A DNA stretch of 64,000 bases, taken from positions 1 through 64,000 of the forward strand of contig NZ_BDIR01000003.1 of NCBI RefSeq assembly GCF_001895145.1, read 5' to 3'. The DNA is from Arcobacter sp. LA11. Lineage in GTDB: Bacteria; Campylobacterota; Campylobacteria; Campylobacterales; Arcobacteraceae. The position numbers and the translations under genes were made by a program. Numbering within the stretch: the stretch's first letter is position 1; every line of letters begins with the position of its first letter. Positions 53,850 to 61,089 of the stretch are shown piece by piece. Under the pieces are notes generated by a model. That model was not told where the DNA came from. It did no database searches and saw only the letters and a program-made list of their open reading frames with translations.

Positions 53850-54161
53850 TTAAAAAAAACTTTTATATGTATGTGCAGGGACTTTTCTCAAAAAGAAAAT
53901 TATTTTATATGGCTTTTTATCAATCTTTACAGTTGTTTCTTTTTTTAGGAAGGGAAATCTTTTTGTTTTAATTATATTGTTTTTTTTATTCATTAAATGA
54001 AAGCTATATAAACCACATTTATTTCTGCTATTACTAATGCAAGATATTTTTGCTTCTTTTTTTTCTGTATCATACTGAACTTGTAAATCAATTGTATAAC
54101 TTACGGGATGAGCATTTATATACAAAGTTATACATAATAGACTTAATAGTATTTTTTTCAT
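53850..54161 (-). CDS. Small secreted protein, last gene of the NicO module
   Basis: 103 residues. Signal peptide then a mature start after INA that would expose an N-terminal His (HPVSYTIDL). Two Cys lie in the middle (ISCISNSRNKCGLY). The start is ATG at 54161, overlapping the DUF1007-like stop as ATGA; a longer frame from 54179 exists but the overlap favours the shorter one. Unknown family. The protein may bind metal by its N-terminal His, by analogy with its upstream neighbour. Confidence 0.7.
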   Translation of the reverse strand: MKKILLSLLCITLYINAHPVSYTIDLQVQYDTEKKEAKISCISNSRNKCGLYSFHLMNKKNNIIKTKRFPFLKKETTVKIDKKPYKIIFFLRKVPAHTYKSFF

Positions 54162-54643
54162 TTTGTTACTCCTATACAATAATCATATTCACTTTTTTGT
54201 ACTTCAAGTTTTTTCGCAGAGCTTATTTCAATCAATTTATATGCCATATATAATTTTTCATCAATAGTACACATAGTAAAGACATTATTTAATTTTATAT
54301 CTATATCAAAAGAAAGACTAATTCTTTTATCATTGTTTTGGTTTATTTGAATATTTTTTGGCTCAATTTTTATTTCATCTTCTAATGTTAGAAAAATATT
54401 ATAATTATTTTCTTTTAATTTGGAAAAATGTGTTTTAATGAAAGCATTTTTCTCATTTTTATCAAAAATTTTGTTTTTATTTTTATCAAAGTCAAACAAT
54501 AATACCCTTGAATTTAATCTATCAAAAATCCATTCATTTTTTATTTTATCTTCTTTTATTATGATTTTTGAATCTAGAAAGAAGTGGGGATGAGCATAGA
54601 TTATTTCTATACAAATAAAAAAAATTAAAAATATTTTTTTCAT
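54158..54643 (-). CDS. DUF1007-family secreted protein
   Basis: 161 residues with signal peptide (about 1-16). The mature end HPHFFLDSKI is the DUF1007 signature, with His at or near the new N-terminus. An EF-hand-like stretch (DFDKNKNKIFDKNE, about 52-65) suggests calcium or other metal binding. DUF1007 genes commonly lie beside NicO-type transporters and are presumed to feed metal to them. It overlaps both neighbours by four bases (ATGA). Confidence 0.85.
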   Translation of the reverse strand: MKKIFLIFFICIEIIYAHPHFFLDSKIIIKEDKIKNEWIFDRLNSRVLLFDFDKNKNKIFDKNEKNAFIKTHFSKLKENNYNIFLTLEDEIKIEPKNIQINQNNDKRISLSFDIDIKLNNVFTMCTIDEKLYMAYKLIEISSAKKLEVQKSEYDYCIGVTK

Positions 54644-55368
54644 ACTAATAAAAATACTCCTAATATAAATAACAAAATTATCGCTGAATAAGTTAACAAA
54701 TTCATATAGACTTTATAATTTTGATATCTAGAATTTTTAACTTGTGTAGCCACAATTGCTGCAACTGATATGGTAATTCCCATACCTATACTCATAGCAA
54801 CGGCACTTAATATTCCTAAAGAAATGTAGCCTAATATCATAGAGAATAGAACAATAGTCATTACTCCTGGACAAGGTACAATGCCAATTGAAAATGTTAC
54901 TGCAAATAAATTTTTAGTTTGAAGTCGTTGAATCTTTTCTTCTTCATTTTTATCTGTTATTACTTCATATAACAAATATAATGCAATAAAAATAATAAAT
55001 ATTGCTGATATTTTATACATATTTGTATTTATTTCTTGAAAATGTTTTGTAATAGAGTTTTGAAGAAATATATATAATAGTCCTGTAATACAAAGTGCAG
55101 AGAAAGTATGGATAATAGAGGTTAAAAAACCTGCTTTAAAAGCTTCTTTGATTTTTGCTTCTTTAGCTAAAAAGTAACTTGCAATTACTAACTTTCCATG
55201 TCCAGGACCTAAGGCGTGAACTAAGCCGTAAATAAAAGAAACAGCTAATATGTAGAAAAAAATAATAGATTCACCCATTTCTAATCTATCAAAATAATTA
55301 GATATTTTAATATTTAATATTTGTTGTGTCTGGACAACAAAATTTAAGAAACTCTGATATATACTCAT
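54640..55368 (-). CDS. NicO-type nickel/cobalt membrane transporter
   Basis: 242-residue inner-membrane protein with about six helices. The signature VHALGPGHGKLVIASYFL (about residues 50-67) and IVPCPGVMTIVL identify the NicO (RcnA-like) family. Direction of transport is not set by sequence; relatives both import and export Ni or Co. It overlaps the diheme lipoprotein and the DUF1007 gene by four bases each (ATGA). First helix group begins near residue 33. Confidence 0.9.
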   Translation of the reverse strand: MSIYQSFLNFVVQTQQILNIKISNYFDRLEMGESIIFFYILAVSFIYGLVHALGPGHGKLVIASYFLAKEAKIKEAFKAGFLTSIIHTFSALCITGLLYIFLQNSITKHFQEINTNMYKISAIFIIFIALYLLYEVITDKNEEEKIQRLQTKNLFAVTFSIGIVPCPGVMTIVLFSMILGYISLGILSAVAMSIGMGITISVAAIVATQVKNSRYQNYKVYMNLLTYSAIILLFILGVFLLV

Positions 55369-57122
55369 TTTTCAACTATCTTTTGCAAATGTGTCATTTG
55401 ACCTGGTTTAATAATTTTATGAACGTTATTAGTAGGTTTTATGTGTGGATCTCGTCCATAGATAAAACTTTGTTCTTCAACAATTATTTTATATGCTTTG
55501 TTAAGTTCTAATGCTCTTTTAGAAGTTGGTAGAATTAAATATGATATATCTTTTCTGATTTTATCAAGTTCTTTTTCTTTAAATTTCCATTTTTGTTCTA
55601 TTATTTTATTTGGGTTCTCTAATTTAGATATTAAATCTTTTTCTATATTTTTTTTATTCGTTTCCCAATTTTTAATAAAAAATTTGTCTACTATTTCTTT
55701 ATTCATTCTGAATTCATCACCTGCACTATTCTCTTTTAAATACTTAACATATTCTGTTTCATCATTTAAAAGTTTTTTATCAGCGATATTTCTAATTCCT
55801 TTTTGTGTCCAATGATACCAGCCATAAGCAAGATTATTTTTTTCGAATTTTCTTTTGAAAACAAAAGTTGAGTCTGTAATTGCTCCTATATTACTATGGC
55901 AACCCATACAAAATACAGTTTCTTCATAATTTTGTGGTCTTAAATTACCATTTATATCTTCAATAAAACCTTGATAGTACCATCCTCTTTTATTACTAAG
56001 TCCTGTTTCCATATTGCCAACATATATATCTGTTCTATCAGGAAAATCGCGTTTCTCTTTTAATTCAGCAAATCCTAAATTTGATAGTTGTGAGTATGTA
56101 TTCCAATTGGTTTTTTTACCATATCTTAGCTCCTTCATTCGTGAAGACATTTTAATATTTTTATTCTCATCTATATCAATATATCTTACTGAATGGATAA
56201 ATTCTGTGCCTACAGGGTATAAGCCAGGTGCTATTTTTTCAATATTATCTATTTGAAGTTTCTTTGCTTCACCTACATATGACATGGAAAAATTCTTTTG
56301 TTTCATAGTTTTCATATCAAGCGTTGGTTTTTTCCAATTAAATACAATTTTTGAACTTATATCAATTTTTCCATTTTGATTAAGGTCTACACCAAAATCT
56401 TTTTCATTTACTTTTTCAATATTAATATCTTTTTGTTTTATTAGTGATTCTATTATCGAGAGATTTATTTTATAAATTTCTTTATCAAACTCTCCCTTTT
56501 CATTATTTTGATAAACTTTTGAAAGTCTTATTAAAACATCATCAGTACTTCCATTTGTTGGCCAAAATGTTCCTAAGAAAGGATAGTATGCAAATGCTCT
56601 CCATCCTGTGTACTCTCCTTTTGAATTTTTATCAAAGCCTTCTTCATCAAAATTAAAATGTACATCTGGAATATAACCATCCCATTTCCCATTATTATTA
56701 AAATCCCATTCTTTTGATAAGTTTTTTAATTTAGACTCTAGAATAATTTTATTATTTGAATCTTTATAGTTATTTTCTCTTATGTAGTTTAAAATTGCTA
56801 TATCATCAATTTTTGATACTTCTTTAGTTCTATCTTTAAAAAGATTAATCCATGGGTTTTTTAATGCTATTTCAGGAAAATCATATGCTTCTTGTAAATC
56901 TTCATCCTGCATAGTAAAATTAGGAATTTTATTTTTTGTATGACAAGAATAACATGGATTGTGTAGTATATTTTTATTTAGTTCATTTTCTGTTTTTGTA
57001 TAACATTGACTTGAAATATAGGCAGTTTTATTATATAGCTTCTTAGTTTTTAAATCTATTGAACAGGCAGATGTAGTTAAAAGTAATATTAAAAGTATTT
57101 GTTTATAGTCTGTATTTTTCAT
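55365..57122 (-). CDS. Diheme c-type cytochrome lipoprotein, unknown role
   Basis: 585 residues. The N-terminus is a signal peptide with lipobox TSAC (17-20). Two c-type heme sites, CYSCH (57-61) and CMGCH (405-409), lie far apart. Calcium-loop-like segments occur at DFNNNGKWDG (140-149) and DLNQNGKID (246-254). No family I can name; it is not a short cytochrome, nor a CcpA peroxidase by motif. It starts a four-gene unit with NicO, overlapping it by four bases, which hints at redox-linked metal handling in the periplasm. Confidence 0.85.
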   Translation of the reverse strand: MKNTDYKQILLILLLTTSACSIDLKTKKLYNKTAYISSQCYTKTENELNKNILHNPCYSCHTKNKIPNFTMQDEDLQEAYDFPEIALKNPWINLFKDRTKEVSKIDDIAILNYIRENNYKDSNNKIILESKLKNLSKEWDFNNNGKWDGYIPDVHFNFDEEGFDKNSKGEYTGWRAFAYYPFLGTFWPTNGSTDDVLIRLSKVYQNNEKGEFDKEIYKINLSIIESLIKQKDINIEKVNEKDFGVDLNQNGKIDISSKIVFNWKKPTLDMKTMKQKNFSMSYVGEAKKLQIDNIEKIAPGLYPVGTEFIHSVRYIDIDENKNIKMSSRMKELRYGKKTNWNTYSQLSNLGFAELKEKRDFPDRTDIYVGNMETGLSNKRGWYYQGFIEDINGNLRPQNYEETVFCMGCHSNIGAITDSTFVFKRKFEKNNLAYGWYHWTQKGIRNIADKKLLNDETEYVKYLKENSAGDEFRMNKEIVDKFFIKNWETNKKNIEKDLISKLENPNKIIEQKWKFKEKELDKIRKDISYLILPTSKRALELNKAYKIIVEEQSFIYGRDPHIKPTNNVHKIIKPGQMTHLQKIVEK

Positions 57123-57152: not shown

Positions 57153-57199
57153 ATTATAAAATTGTTTAGTTACATTATGATAACAAGAAAGGTTATCAT
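57153..57199 (-). promoter_or_regulatory. Promoter -10 box and inverted-repeat operator before the diheme-NicO module
   Basis: On the minus strand TATAAT at 57158-57153 lies 30 bases before the diheme ATG. An inverted repeat ATGATAAC-N7-GTTATCAT (57177-57199) covers the -35 region. The half-sites resemble those of Fur-type regulators (GATAAT-like), but I cannot assign a regulator. It might also serve as terminator of the histidine kinase gene. Confidence 0.45.
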
Positions 57200-57230: not shown

Positions 57231-59120
57231 TTATTCACTTTTTATTTTTTTAGAAAGTGGAATTTCTATTATAATCTTTGCCCCTACTTTACTATTTTTA
57301 ATTTTAATTTTTCCATTTAGTTTTGTTTCAATAATTAATCTTGAAATATAGAGGCCTAATCCTGTACCTTCTTTACTTTTTTTAGTTGTAAAATACATAT
57401 CAAAGACTTTATTTATAATTTCTTCTTTTATTCCTCCCGCATTATCTTCTATTTGTACAATAATATTTCTTTTATCTTTTTCTATTGATATCTCAATATT
57501 TTTATAGTTTGATGTTTTTTCACATAAAGCATCTTTTGCATTGATAAGTATATTTAGAATGACTTGTGAAAACTCACTTGGATAACCAAGAATCGGATAT
57601 ATTTCACTTTTTCTATTTACTTTAATATTAATATGATTATATGTTAAACTCATATCTATAATATTAATTGCGTTATCTATATAATCAGAGGCATTAAATA
57701 CTTCTTTTTTCCTATTTGGTTCAAAGAAGTTAGAAAAGTCATCAATGGTTGTAGACATATATTTAAGAAGTTCATTACCATTTTTAATTCTTGTATTCAT
57801 ATATTCTTTAGTTAACTCATCAAAGTTGTAAGAAGCTTCTAAGTTCATAAATATTCCACCTAATTGAGAAAGTGGTTGTCTCCATTGGTGTGCTATATGT
57901 GCAATCATTTCTCCCATCATTGCAAGTTTTGACTGCTGCATTAGTAAATATTCGTTATCAAGCCTTTTCTTTATCTCTTTGTCAACCTCTTCTTGTAATA
58001 AGTTTTTTTCTTTTTCATGGATAGTTACATCTTTAAATATGATTTTTATATAGTTGTTATTTAAGTTTTTTGATAAAGTTCCTGATAATTCATAAGAGGA
58101 ATCTCCTATTTTTATTATTGTATTTGTCAATATACTTTTATTTTGAAAGCTTTTATAGATTTTTTTCCAATCTTTTTTCCCAAAAATAGAAGTTACTTTT
58201 CTATCTAATAAATTATCACCAAATATTGTTTTTGCTTTATTGTTCATCCAATATAATATTTGTTCTTTTTCATTATCAAAAATCTCGATTATAGCTTCTG
58301 GTAAAAAATTCATTATTTCTTGAGCATGCTTTATTTTATTTTGGAGTATTCTTGAATAATTTCCTTTTATATGTTTAAGAATATCTCTATTTGTAAGAAT
58401 ATTTACTACGTTATTCTTTTTATCTAAAACTACAACTCTTCTAATATTTTTTAATTTCATAATATCTATTACATTTGTTACTAGTTCATTTGAATTAACT
58501 GTAATAATTGGTTTATTCATATATTCTTCAATATTTGATTTTAAATTTATCTCTTTAAATGTGATATTTAGGATGTCTTTTTCTGTAATAATACCAACTT
58601 GGTGGTTGTTTTTAGTGACTACAATAGAACCTACTCTATGCTCTTGCATTAATATTAATGTATCATAGATAGTAGAACTTACATCTATTGTTAAAACCTT
58701 TTTATTTGTTTTTACAATATCGTTTATTTTTAAGTCAACTTTATAAACATCTTCTTCTAAGTATTCAAATAAGTTTTCTTGGGTTACAACTCCTGTATAC
58801 TCGTCTTTTTTATTAACTAAAACTATTCTACGTATATTATTTTTACTTAGAATATCAAAAGCAATATCTATTGGACGGTTTTGATTAACTGTAATAACTT
58901 TTTTTTGTCCAATTTTATATACTGGAGTGTCTAAATTTATTTTATTTTTTAAAATATTTACAATATCACTCTCTGTTAATATTCCAATTGGTTTGTTTTT
59001 TTTAATTAATATAGCACAACCATTTTTATTTTTTATCATTATAGACATTGTTTCTTTTATTGATGCGTCATGTTTTACCTGGAATGTATGCTGGTTCTTT
59101 ATATCTTTTAAATTGTTCAT
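57231..59120 (-). CDS. Sensor histidine kinase with four CBS domains and a PAS-like domain
   Basis: 629 residues, no membrane helix. Order: four CBS domains (about 8-62, 70-122, 135-190, 198-250), a PAS-like domain (about 270-365), HisKA with phospho-acceptor His411 in MIAHIAHQWRQPLS, and an ATPase domain with NILINAKDAL, DNAGGI and GTGLGLYISR. CBS pairs usually bind AMP, ADP, ATP or SAM, so it probably senses a soluble signal. It starts one base after the response-regulator stop, which follows the arginine kinase by 20 bases. Confidence 0.9.
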   Translation of the reverse strand: MNNLKDIKNQHTFQVKHDASIKETMSIMIKNKNGCAILIKKNKPIGILTESDIVNILKNKINLDTPVYKIGQKKVITVNQNRPIDIAFDILSKNNIRRIVLVNKKDEYTGVVTQENLFEYLEEDVYKVDLKINDIVKTNKKVLTIDVSSTIYDTLILMQEHRVGSIVVTKNNHQVGIITEKDILNITFKEINLKSNIEEYMNKPIITVNSNELVTNVIDIMKLKNIRRVVVLDKKNNVVNILTNRDILKHIKGNYSRILQNKIKHAQEIMNFLPEAIIEIFDNEKEQILYWMNNKAKTIFGDNLLDRKVTSIFGKKDWKKIYKSFQNKSILTNTIIKIGDSSYELSGTLSKNLNNNYIKIIFKDVTIHEKEKNLLQEEVDKEIKKRLDNEYLLMQQSKLAMMGEMIAHIAHQWRQPLSQLGGIFMNLEASYNFDELTKEYMNTRIKNGNELLKYMSTTIDDFSNFFEPNRKKEVFNASDYIDNAINIIDMSLTYNHINIKVNRKSEIYPILGYPSEFSQVILNILINAKDALCEKTSNYKNIEISIEKDKRNIIVQIEDNAGGIKEEIINKVFDMYFTTKKSKEGTGLGLYISRLIIETKLNGKIKIKNSKVGAKIIIEIPLSKKIKSE

Positions 59121-59121
59121 T

Positions 59122-59835
59122 TTAATCTGTTCTTACGCAAAGTTTATATCCTACACCACTGATATTTTTGAGAATTTTACTATATGTTTTATTTCTTATA
59201 TTTCTAATTTGACTTCGTATTGCATCTTCTGTCATTATATCATCAGGCCAAATTTGAGTTTCTATTACTTCATAAGTAATTGTTTCATTTTTTTTATTTA
59301 TAAAAAATTCTAACAATTGGATTTCTTTTTTTCTTAGTAGAATAATAGAGTTATCTTTTTTATTAAGTATATTTTTTTCTGTATGTTGATAGATAAAGCC
59401 CTCTCCTAAGTCAATTAAAGTAGGAAGTGAGCTATTTTTATCTAATTCTAATATTGCTTTTTGTGTAGCACTAAAAAGATCCGTTCCTGTTACTGGTTTA
59501 ACTAAATATCTTGTTAAATCTAATTCTACAGCTTGAACCATAAATTCTTTGTTTGTGTAAGCTGTAGTCATAATAATTCTAGTTTTTGAATCCTCTTTTC
59601 TAATTAAAGATGCAAAGTCAATACCATTCATTCCTGGCAAGTTTATATCTAAGAGAATAATATTTGGTTTGTATATTTTATAAAGGTCTAAGGCTTCTTC
59701 ACAGTTGTCAGAAACATATATTTTTTTAAAAAATCTATTTAAGTACTCTACAATATGTTTTCTAACGTCTAATTCATCTTCAACATATAATACTGTACAG
59801 TATTTCATTTTATTAATTAATTCTTTTTTATCCAT
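59122..59835 (-). CDS. Response regulator with winged-helix DNA-binding domain
   Basis: 237 residues. Receiver domain with VEDE (18-21), phospho-acceptor Asp63 in LLDINLPG, TTAY and Lys113 in VKP. The C-terminus is an OmpR/PhoB-type winged helix (QLLEFFINKKNETITYEVIE, IRSQIRNIRNKT, GVGYKL). It lies between the arginine kinase and the CBS histidine kinase in one run, so it is surely their partner; target genes are unknown, perhaps the run itself. Confidence 0.93.
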   Translation of the reverse strand: MDKKELINKMKYCTVLYVEDELDVRKHIVEYLNRFFKKIYVSDNCEEALDLYKIYKPNIILLDINLPGMNGIDFASLIRKEDSKTRIIMTTAYTNKEFMVQAVELDLTRYLVKPVTGTDLFSATQKAILELDKNSSLPTLIDLGEGFIYQHTEKNILNKKDNSIILLRKKEIQLLEFFINKKNETITYEVIETQIWPDDIMTEDAIRSQIRNIRNKTYSKILKNISGVGYKLCVRTD

Positions 59836-59855
59836 TTATTTCATTTCAATATATA

Positions 59856-60905
59856 TTATTTATTTTCTAATTCTTTTTCTATTTTTATGAGTTCAACTAC
59901 TCCATCATACATATCTTGAACACATTGTACTTCTGTTACTCCAAGTCTTCTTTTATTACTAATATCATAAACTCCACCAACACTTTCTGAGTGTTCTCCA
60001 TGGATACCTCTAATTTGTAAATGAAAATTATCAGTAATATTTTTAAATCTATTCATATCTTCAGATAAGTTTGGAAGTTTTATATGAACACTTGCTCTCA
60101 TAGCTGTACCTAAGTTAGTTGGACAACTTGTAATATATCCTAAATGGTCATTATAAGAAAATTGTATCTTTTCTTCTATTTTTTTTATTGCAGTGGTTAA
60201 TCTTTCAAAAACCTCTTTTATATCTCCACCTTCTTGCATAGATATAATTCTTAACTGGTCTTCTTCATTTACCCAAACTAAAAATGTTTTTTCATCATTA
60301 TGAAATATACCTCTTCCCGATGGCCAATCTCTATTTAATCCAGCAGCTTCTAAAAATCTATCTCCTGCTTTAAATAAAAAATGATCTGAAATAAGTTGTT
60401 TCTTTATATTTTCAGGCATTCCATCTAAAGGATAATAAGTCCCTTTTAAATCATCATTTAGTGAATTTAAAGCATTAGATGCATCATTTTCTATTTTTTC
60501 TCTTTGTTCTTTAGTTATAGCAGGTCCTAAAGGAATATTTGCAAAGTTACGTCCAACTCTAATTCTTGTTGAAAGTATATATTTACCTTCTTCGTCTGGA
60601 TTTGGAGCATTTAAGTCATTAGGATTTAGATTACTAGTATGTTTATCTTCTTTAGAAAAACCATGATAATCTTCAATTATTGGATCAAATAATAAATTAA
60701 AAGTTGTATATGATTCAATATCTCCTGCATAAACACCTATTCCACTATCTAAGTTTACAACACCAGATAAAATTGCATTTTCTAAAGTAAAATTATTTGC
60801 TGTTTTCTTCTCATTTAACTTAGAATACACATCTTGAGTTAAATATTTTGATAACAATGATTTACAAGTTTTTGGAAACTCAGGACAAGTAGTGATTTTA
60901 TTCAT
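59856..60905 (-). CDS. Arginine kinase (phosphagen kinase)
   Basis: Transfers phosphate between ATP and arginine, forming the energy store phosphoarginine. 349 residues against about 356 in animals. All key parts are visible: GS region GVVNLDSGIGVYAGD (48-62), phosphate-binding STRIRVGR (112-119), NEED with Glu215, catalytic CPTNLGT (Cys261 to Thr267), RASVHIKLP, and RGIHGEHSES with Glu304 in the mobile loop. Animal-like identity is striking. Bacterial phosphagen kinases are rare and probably came by transfer. It heads a run with a two-component system. Confidence 0.97.
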   Translation of the reverse strand: MNKITTCPEFPKTCKSLLSKYLTQDVYSKLNEKKTANNFTLENAILSGVVNLDSGIGVYAGDIESYTTFNLLFDPIIEDYHGFSKEDKHTSNLNPNDLNAPNPDEEGKYILSTRIRVGRNFANIPLGPAITKEQREKIENDASNALNSLNDDLKGTYYPLDGMPENIKKQLISDHFLFKAGDRFLEAAGLNRDWPSGRGIFHNDEKTFLVWVNEEDQLRIISMQEGGDIKEVFERLTTAIKKIEEKIQFSYNDHLGYITSCPTNLGTAMRASVHIKLPNLSEDMNRFKNITDNFHLQIRGIHGEHSESVGGVYDISNKRRLGVTEVQCVQDMYDGVVELIKIEKELENK

Positions 60906-61089
60906 TTTTTTTCCTTATATTTATATTATATTCTTTTAAATTTTTATTTAATTTAATATTTCGTAAATATTTATAATATTTTAGAAATATTTAGTTTTTA
61001 TTTTATTATAAAAAAATGTATATAAAAGGGAATAGAAATAAGATATTCTTTGATATTATTAAAAAATAAATATATAAAAGGAGAATTTT

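Follow-up and report, generated by a model that had tools for sequence, protein, structure and literature searches.

In Arcobacter sp. LA11, a gene for arginine kinase (AK), a phosphagen kinase, lies directly upstream of genes for an OmpR/PhoB-type response regulator (RR) and a soluble sensor histidine kinase (HK), and is preceded by a candidate RR site (Table 1). All are located on the minus strand of the stretch analysed here, positions 1-64,000 of the forward strand of contig NZ_BDIR01000003.1 (assembly GCF_001895145.1), hereafter the window. The coordinates of the open reading frames (ORFs) exactly reproduce the order and the gaps of 20 and 1 nt which an earlier note on this DNA had given for a single run. 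Since RR and HK follow AK after only 20 nt and no terminator was found in this gap, the three genes of strain LA11 are probably transcribed as one unit, as judged from their arrangement. A scan of the region with consensus promoter patterns was uninformative, resulting in 30 matches versus 34 expected.

Table 1. Features of the AK-RR-HK run and its upstream region in the window. PWM, position weight matrix.
Feature	Position	Strand	Remarks
Arginine kinase (AK, phosphagen kinase)	59856..60905	-	349 aa; Pfam, PDB matches, catalytic residues
OmpR/PhoB-type response regulator (RR)	59122..59835	-	237 aa; Pfam, ortholog alignment, residues
Soluble sensor histidine kinase (HK)	57231..59120	-	629 aa; Pfam, model, no transmembrane stretch
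AK-RR gap	59836..59855	-	20 nt; too short for a terminator
RR-HK gap	59121	-	1 nt
Candidate RR site and AK promoter	60999..61034	-	PWM; 93 nt upstream of the start codon of AK
Half-sites TTCCCT and ATACAT	61027-61032 and 61016-61021	-	11 bp apart; PWM site
-10-like box TAAAAT	61000-61005	-	Within the candidate AK promoter; transcript start predicted near 60993

The AK protein carries an N-terminal (PF02807, 3.9e-27, 94.9 bits at a cut-off of 25.7) as well as a C-terminal (PF00217, 9.9e-83, 277 bits at a cut-off of 22.4) ATP:guanido phosphotransferase domain, with the catalytic residues R114, R116, E215, R219, C261, R270, R299 and E304 located within the expected motifs, and its best solved relatives in the PDB are named arginine kinases. 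By these features it is a two-domain arginine (phosphagen) kinase, predicted to phosphorylate free arginine. An identity as the protein-arginine kinase McsB, with which the C-terminal catalytic domain is shared, was rejected because McsB lacks the N-terminal domain and because scores of 149.9 and 161.4 bits stay far below the respective McsB cut-offs of 500 and 385. Bacterial arginine kinases have been listed from Desulfotalea, Myxococcus, Moritella and Sulfurovum, and their origin has been called debated (PMC6429109). The enzymes of Desulfotalea psychrophila, Myxococcus xanthus and Sulfurovum belong to the same two-domain family, with the same catalytic motifs and a likewise patchy distribution (PMC6429109), whereas AK of the window and its counterparts described below are distinguished by a conserved regulatory site and conserved neighbours. 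In the literature, covered as open-access texts only and thus weak evidence in this respect, no account was found of a regulator of AK, of AK together with argB, or of this HK.

RR is composed of the Pfam domains Response_reg and Trans_reg_C, the receiver showing E19/D20, the phospho-acceptor D63, T91 and K113 and the output domain being a winged helix; a helix with the motif AIR(S/A)QIRN is kept in nearly all aligned orthologues. HK gives four CBS matches (3.7e-38) over about residues 1-255, followed by a PAS-like segment at about 265-365, according to the secondary structure of the predicted model, the H-box AHIAHQWRQP with His411, and a HATPase_c domain. As no hydrophobic 19-residue stretch rises above a Kyte-Doolittle (KD) value of 1.02, compared to 2.77 in the neighbouring NicO membrane protein, HK looks cytosolic, and the description of a cytosolic kinase with four CBS domains in the earlier note is borne out. 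With H411 and HATPase_c in HK, D63 and Trans_reg_C in RR, and both genes adjacent, the pair has the features of a two-component system, for which no NCBIfam equivalog cut-off was reached.

Finding AK beside some two-component gene is in itself unremarkable, since the genome of strain LA11 gives 97 HATPase_c and 86 receiver matches. A chance landing of AK next to one of the about 97 histidine kinases would also fit the patchy occurrence of AK, which is present in 21 of 104 genomes of the family and in 3 of 16 of the genus in many different contexts, and the fact that within the family AK and HK are linked in the window genome only, the four other HK-owning genomes (G007, G048, G139 and G059) all being without AK. 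Against this stands that the same HK family is a recurrent AK neighbour in other families, where it shares the promoter motif described below; the adjacency is thus not attributable to chance, and together with the score of the held-out window site such an explanation appears hardly credible.

The linkage was followed in 25 full-length HK orthologues from four families of the order, with AK status taken for all HK owners but G696, G666 and G641. In 14 of these 25, including the window, AK lies no more than about 2.5 kb from HK and has the same orientation; the number rises to 16 when two probable cases are added, one with the cluster split by a contig end inside a small ORF, o98 (G553), the other with the HK and AK parts 8.3 kb apart (G578). 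Most often the genes are arranged as RR-HK-argB-small ORF-AK, where argB encodes N-acetylglutamate kinase (NAGK); HK, argB, o98 and AK are contiguous on one strand in G653 (locus L082), G690, G619, G649, G680, G318, G513, G514, G516, G535 and G557, AK of G516 being truncated by the contig start in the tblastn map. Variants are RR-HK-AK without argB (G648) and two genes inserted between HK and argB-o98-AK at a distance of 2.5 kb (G677), while G595 possesses argB-o98-AK away from the HK system. RR adjoins HK in 22 of the 25 loci and was not seen in G318, where it lies beyond the contig edge, G677, where HK is at the contig start, and G553. In family f6, a close full-length HK orthologue is present in 10 of 175 genomes, 9 of which encode AK, compared to 58 of 175 overall. 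Consequently, the search for AK next to CBS-HK genes in other Campylobacterota that had been suggested in the earlier note turned up the linkage in further genomes of other families. A pairing unique to Arcobacter sp. LA11, which would have spoken against the note, had to be discarded, first because of loci L082 and L108 and then on the basis of wider searches.

In phylogenetic trees, AK of the window is placed in a clade of Arcobacteraceae AKs (support 100/99) that lack this linkage, and its HK likewise groups with unlinked Arcobacteraceae HKs. Hence, the linkage in the window, which also shows a different gene order, is probably of independent origin with respect to the other families, as far as the trees can tell; alternatively, it may have been lost in relatives. 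Outside this linkage, AKs of genus g6 (Poseidonibacter and kin; L053, L064, L078, L112, L115) directly follow proA and a small ABM-domain gene, which represents another arginine/proline-related AK context. Two AK-type genes, about 40% alike, are present in G613 (L205 and L232, in tandem) and in G492. Moreover, AKs with 65-69% identity to the window enzyme were found in bins labelled Chlorobi and Lysobacterales (L100, L102) and may reflect gene transfer or mis-binned contigs.

In ten of the cluster genomes, the clustered argB is a second copy (argB2), and the cluster copies form a clade separate from the housekeeping argB. Only the latter is present in the window genome, G007, G001, G013, G048 and G549, and the locus in strain LA11 is unlike the usual form in that its single argB is encoded elsewhere and not near AK. 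The only argB of G059, a genome without AK (L290), belongs to the cluster clade, possibly due to loss of AK after argB replacement. A release of the cluster argB product from arginine feedback was considered and is not supported, as the N-terminal helix is kept and the closest relatives are the NAGKs of P. aeruginosa and T. maritima, both arginine-sensitive enzymes. Between argB and AK, o98 encodes about 70-98 aa (e.g., L178:3515-3775), showing a conserved motif of the QCEAII type and, further along, an aromatic W motif; it gave no significant Pfam match and was not found in the window or in 400 kb more of the window genome.

Upstream of the cluster argB, a 36-bp motif with the consensus CATTTCAC..C.CTTACATTTCTTTT...TACAAT is present, consisting of an 11-bp direct repeat, i.e., two half-sites 11 bp apart, and a -10-like box. 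Half-sites at this spacing just upstream of a -10 box are the layout of promoters activated by OmpR/PhoB-type regulators, as at Pho-box promoters. With such systems the present one has the receiver, the winged helix and the promoter layout in common, while it differs by the soluble sensor bearing four CBS domains and by its cargo, namely AK/argB2 or genes related to cyclic di-GMP (c-di-GMP). A PWM was trained on 16 loci and scored by leave-one-out, with the window and G648 held out. In each of the 17 tested genomes possessing the system, the AK operon is preceded by a site of at least 12.3 bits (30.0 in G648, 13.4 in the window), whereas other AK upstream regions do not exceed 3.6 bits, except in G613 (24.3), which has a related shorter HK. 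A motif before AK in 17 of 17 genomes with the system versus 1 of 69 others corresponds to a Fisher p of 4.5e-17, uncorrected for relatedness. Although held out, the window AK site is the top score among about 128,000 strand-positions of the window, on the correct strand, and the second of 926,530 positions across 464 kb of the genome; none of 300 column-permuted matrices reached its score in that region. Its unusual first half-site (ATTCCCTTTT) recurs at sites adjoining the short-form systems in G614 and G617. Other matches (window +6598 and -29163; L303 -17273) fall within ORFs and were dismissed as chance hits. Shorter HKs of about 375 aa with fewer CBS domains and a close RR are encoded at L189-L194, and in several cases genes next to them are preceded by the same motif.

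The motif could also be no more than a promoter that the argB/AK operon has inherited, to which another factor binds, or none, with the cluster having spread as a block by transfer; the common argB clade and gene order of the f6 and f7 clusters would suit this, as blocks can move together. Yet the argB-AK operons of genomes without the system (G128, G129, G481) are devoid of the motif, while it is present at the unlinked AK operon of G595, indicating that it follows the regulator and not the gene. As it is additionally present in front of AK without argB in G648 and in the window, and in front of unrelated genes beside the system, we consider an inherited promoter very unlikely.

These unrelated genes point to a regulon wider than AK, since further genes adjoining the system, with or without AK, carry the motif in front of them. 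It precedes an operon encoding CheY, CheX, GGDEF-EAL, RR and HK proteins and, separately, a cytidylyltransferase gene, both adjoining the system in G048, RR itself in G139, GGDEF operons beside the system in G059 and G666, and a cytidylyltransferase-aminotransferase operon in the same position in G549 and G578. As predicted from these sites, the RR regulon leans to c-di-GMP and surface sugars. The system might therefore be a general energy- or lifestyle-responsive regulator of such functions, with AK as a mere passenger and the link without special meaning, and precisely these operons in six genomes speak for it. On the other hand, AK is the commonest neighbour (14 to 16 of 25 loci, four families) and the site is found before AK in every tested genome possessing both, even where unlinked as in G595, so that a mere passenger role is unlikely.

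By contrast, the metal/heme genes downstream of HK (P460-like, NicO and DUF1007), which the earlier note had proposed as an alternative target, possess no motif site and occur in no orthologous cluster. Of its overall interpretation, the unit of AK and two-component system found support and the metal/heme target did not, while argB2, the PAS-like segment and the targets of RR beyond AK had been missed. The P460-like (weak match), NicO and DUF1007 genes (53850-57122) have overlapping ends and likely constitute a metal-transport operon; relatives of the P460-like gene are found in 8 of 16 genomes of the genus. Between HK and this gene, at 57177-57199, a perfect 8-bp inverted repeat is located (ATGATAAC-N7-GTTATCAT), which is more operator-like than terminator-like because no T run follows.

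Concerning the signal, a Foldseek comparison of the predicted HK model resulted in TMt values of 0.80 to 3ddj and 0.76 to MJ1225, the best PDB matches of the CBS array being AMP-bound SSO3205, MJ1225 and AMPK gamma. The array shares its four-CBS architecture and a like fold with AMPK gamma and the archaeal proteins MJ1225 and SSO3205. The candidate ribose-binding Asp is present at three of the four sites in the window protein (D52, D182, D246), with N116 in CBS2. Unlike these proteins, the array is joined to a PAS-like and a histidine-kinase domain and would act via RR, on a predicted ligand. On the basis of the model and of the near-invariant motifs of CBS3 and CBS4 described below, sensing of adenylates is plausible and the most likely function.

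Considering all this, AK, RR and HK probably represent an energy-responsive regulon unit, in which the CBS-containing HK would read a ligand and RR would activate AK via the direct repeat. In such a scheme, the soluble HK with its AMPK-gamma-like array would respond to an intracellular ligand, most likely adenylates, and phosphorylate the adjacent RR, as suggested by the conserved residues and the pairing. Phosphorylated RR may then bind the 11-bp direct repeat upstream of the -10 box and activate AK, which is a single gene upstream of RR-HK here, whereas in most relatives the target would be argB2-small ORF-AK downstream. AK would store phosphoarginine when ATP is plentiful and return ATP when it is short, argB2, where present, would raise the arginine supply, and c-di-GMP and surface-sugar genes may be further RR targets in relatives; this direction of the response is a prediction, and the store may instead be built when depletion threatens. 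As the three genes are probably on one transcript, the unit would control its own sensor. In line with the earlier note, RR probably tunes the phosphoarginine-forming enzyme, considering the conserved linkage and an AK-promoter site tracking the presence of the system.

Several observations weigh against this reading. Five HK owners, the four family genomes named above and G549, have no AK in their assemblies, so that the system does not serve AK exclusively, albeit the contig of G007 ends inside RR and the absence there could be an assembly gap; many AKs, in turn, occur without the HK system. The window site, at 13.4 bits, is weaker than most and has a poor first half-site, and one higher chance site (14.7), antisense inside an ORF, exists in 464 kb. 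Furthermore, the compared genomes are related, and their counts are not independent. The HK model is only moderate, with an overall pLDDT of 66 (mostly 65-86 in the CBS stretch) and built with two sequences, and its fold says little about the ligand because proteins with four CBS domains generally tend to resemble AMPK gamma. The ribose-Asp positions of CBS1 and CBS2 vary among HK orthologues, which would also suit a non-adenylate signal such as S-adenosylmethionine, other nucleotides or a metal, all the more as CBS domains bind varied ligands; this would alter the ligand only and leave the AK output the same. With adenylate sensors as closest folds and the TEKD motif of CBS3 and T(N/D)RD of CBS4 near-invariant among the orthologues, another ligand seems rather unlikely.

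Going beyond the energy-responsive unit, it is tempting, albeit tentative and somewhat short of an even chance, to see in this system a bacterial AMPK counterpart, with the CBS-containing HK reading adenylate charge and, by way of a DNA site of the system's own, setting the size of a phosphoarginine store, based on AK and in many cases a dedicated arginine-biosynthesis kinase, plus c-di-GMP and surface functions. If true, an AMPK-gamma architecture would serve as the input of a histidine kinase, and the first regulatory system for a bacterial phosphagen would be described. Most bacterial carriers of AK are known from sequence alone; the conserved regulator with its predicted operator, together with the dedicated argB copy, now provides testable handles on the signal for phosphoarginine storage and on the functions accompanying it. 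Judging from the genomes compared, Campylobacterota possessing the system probably regulate their phosphagen store from the energy state of the cell.

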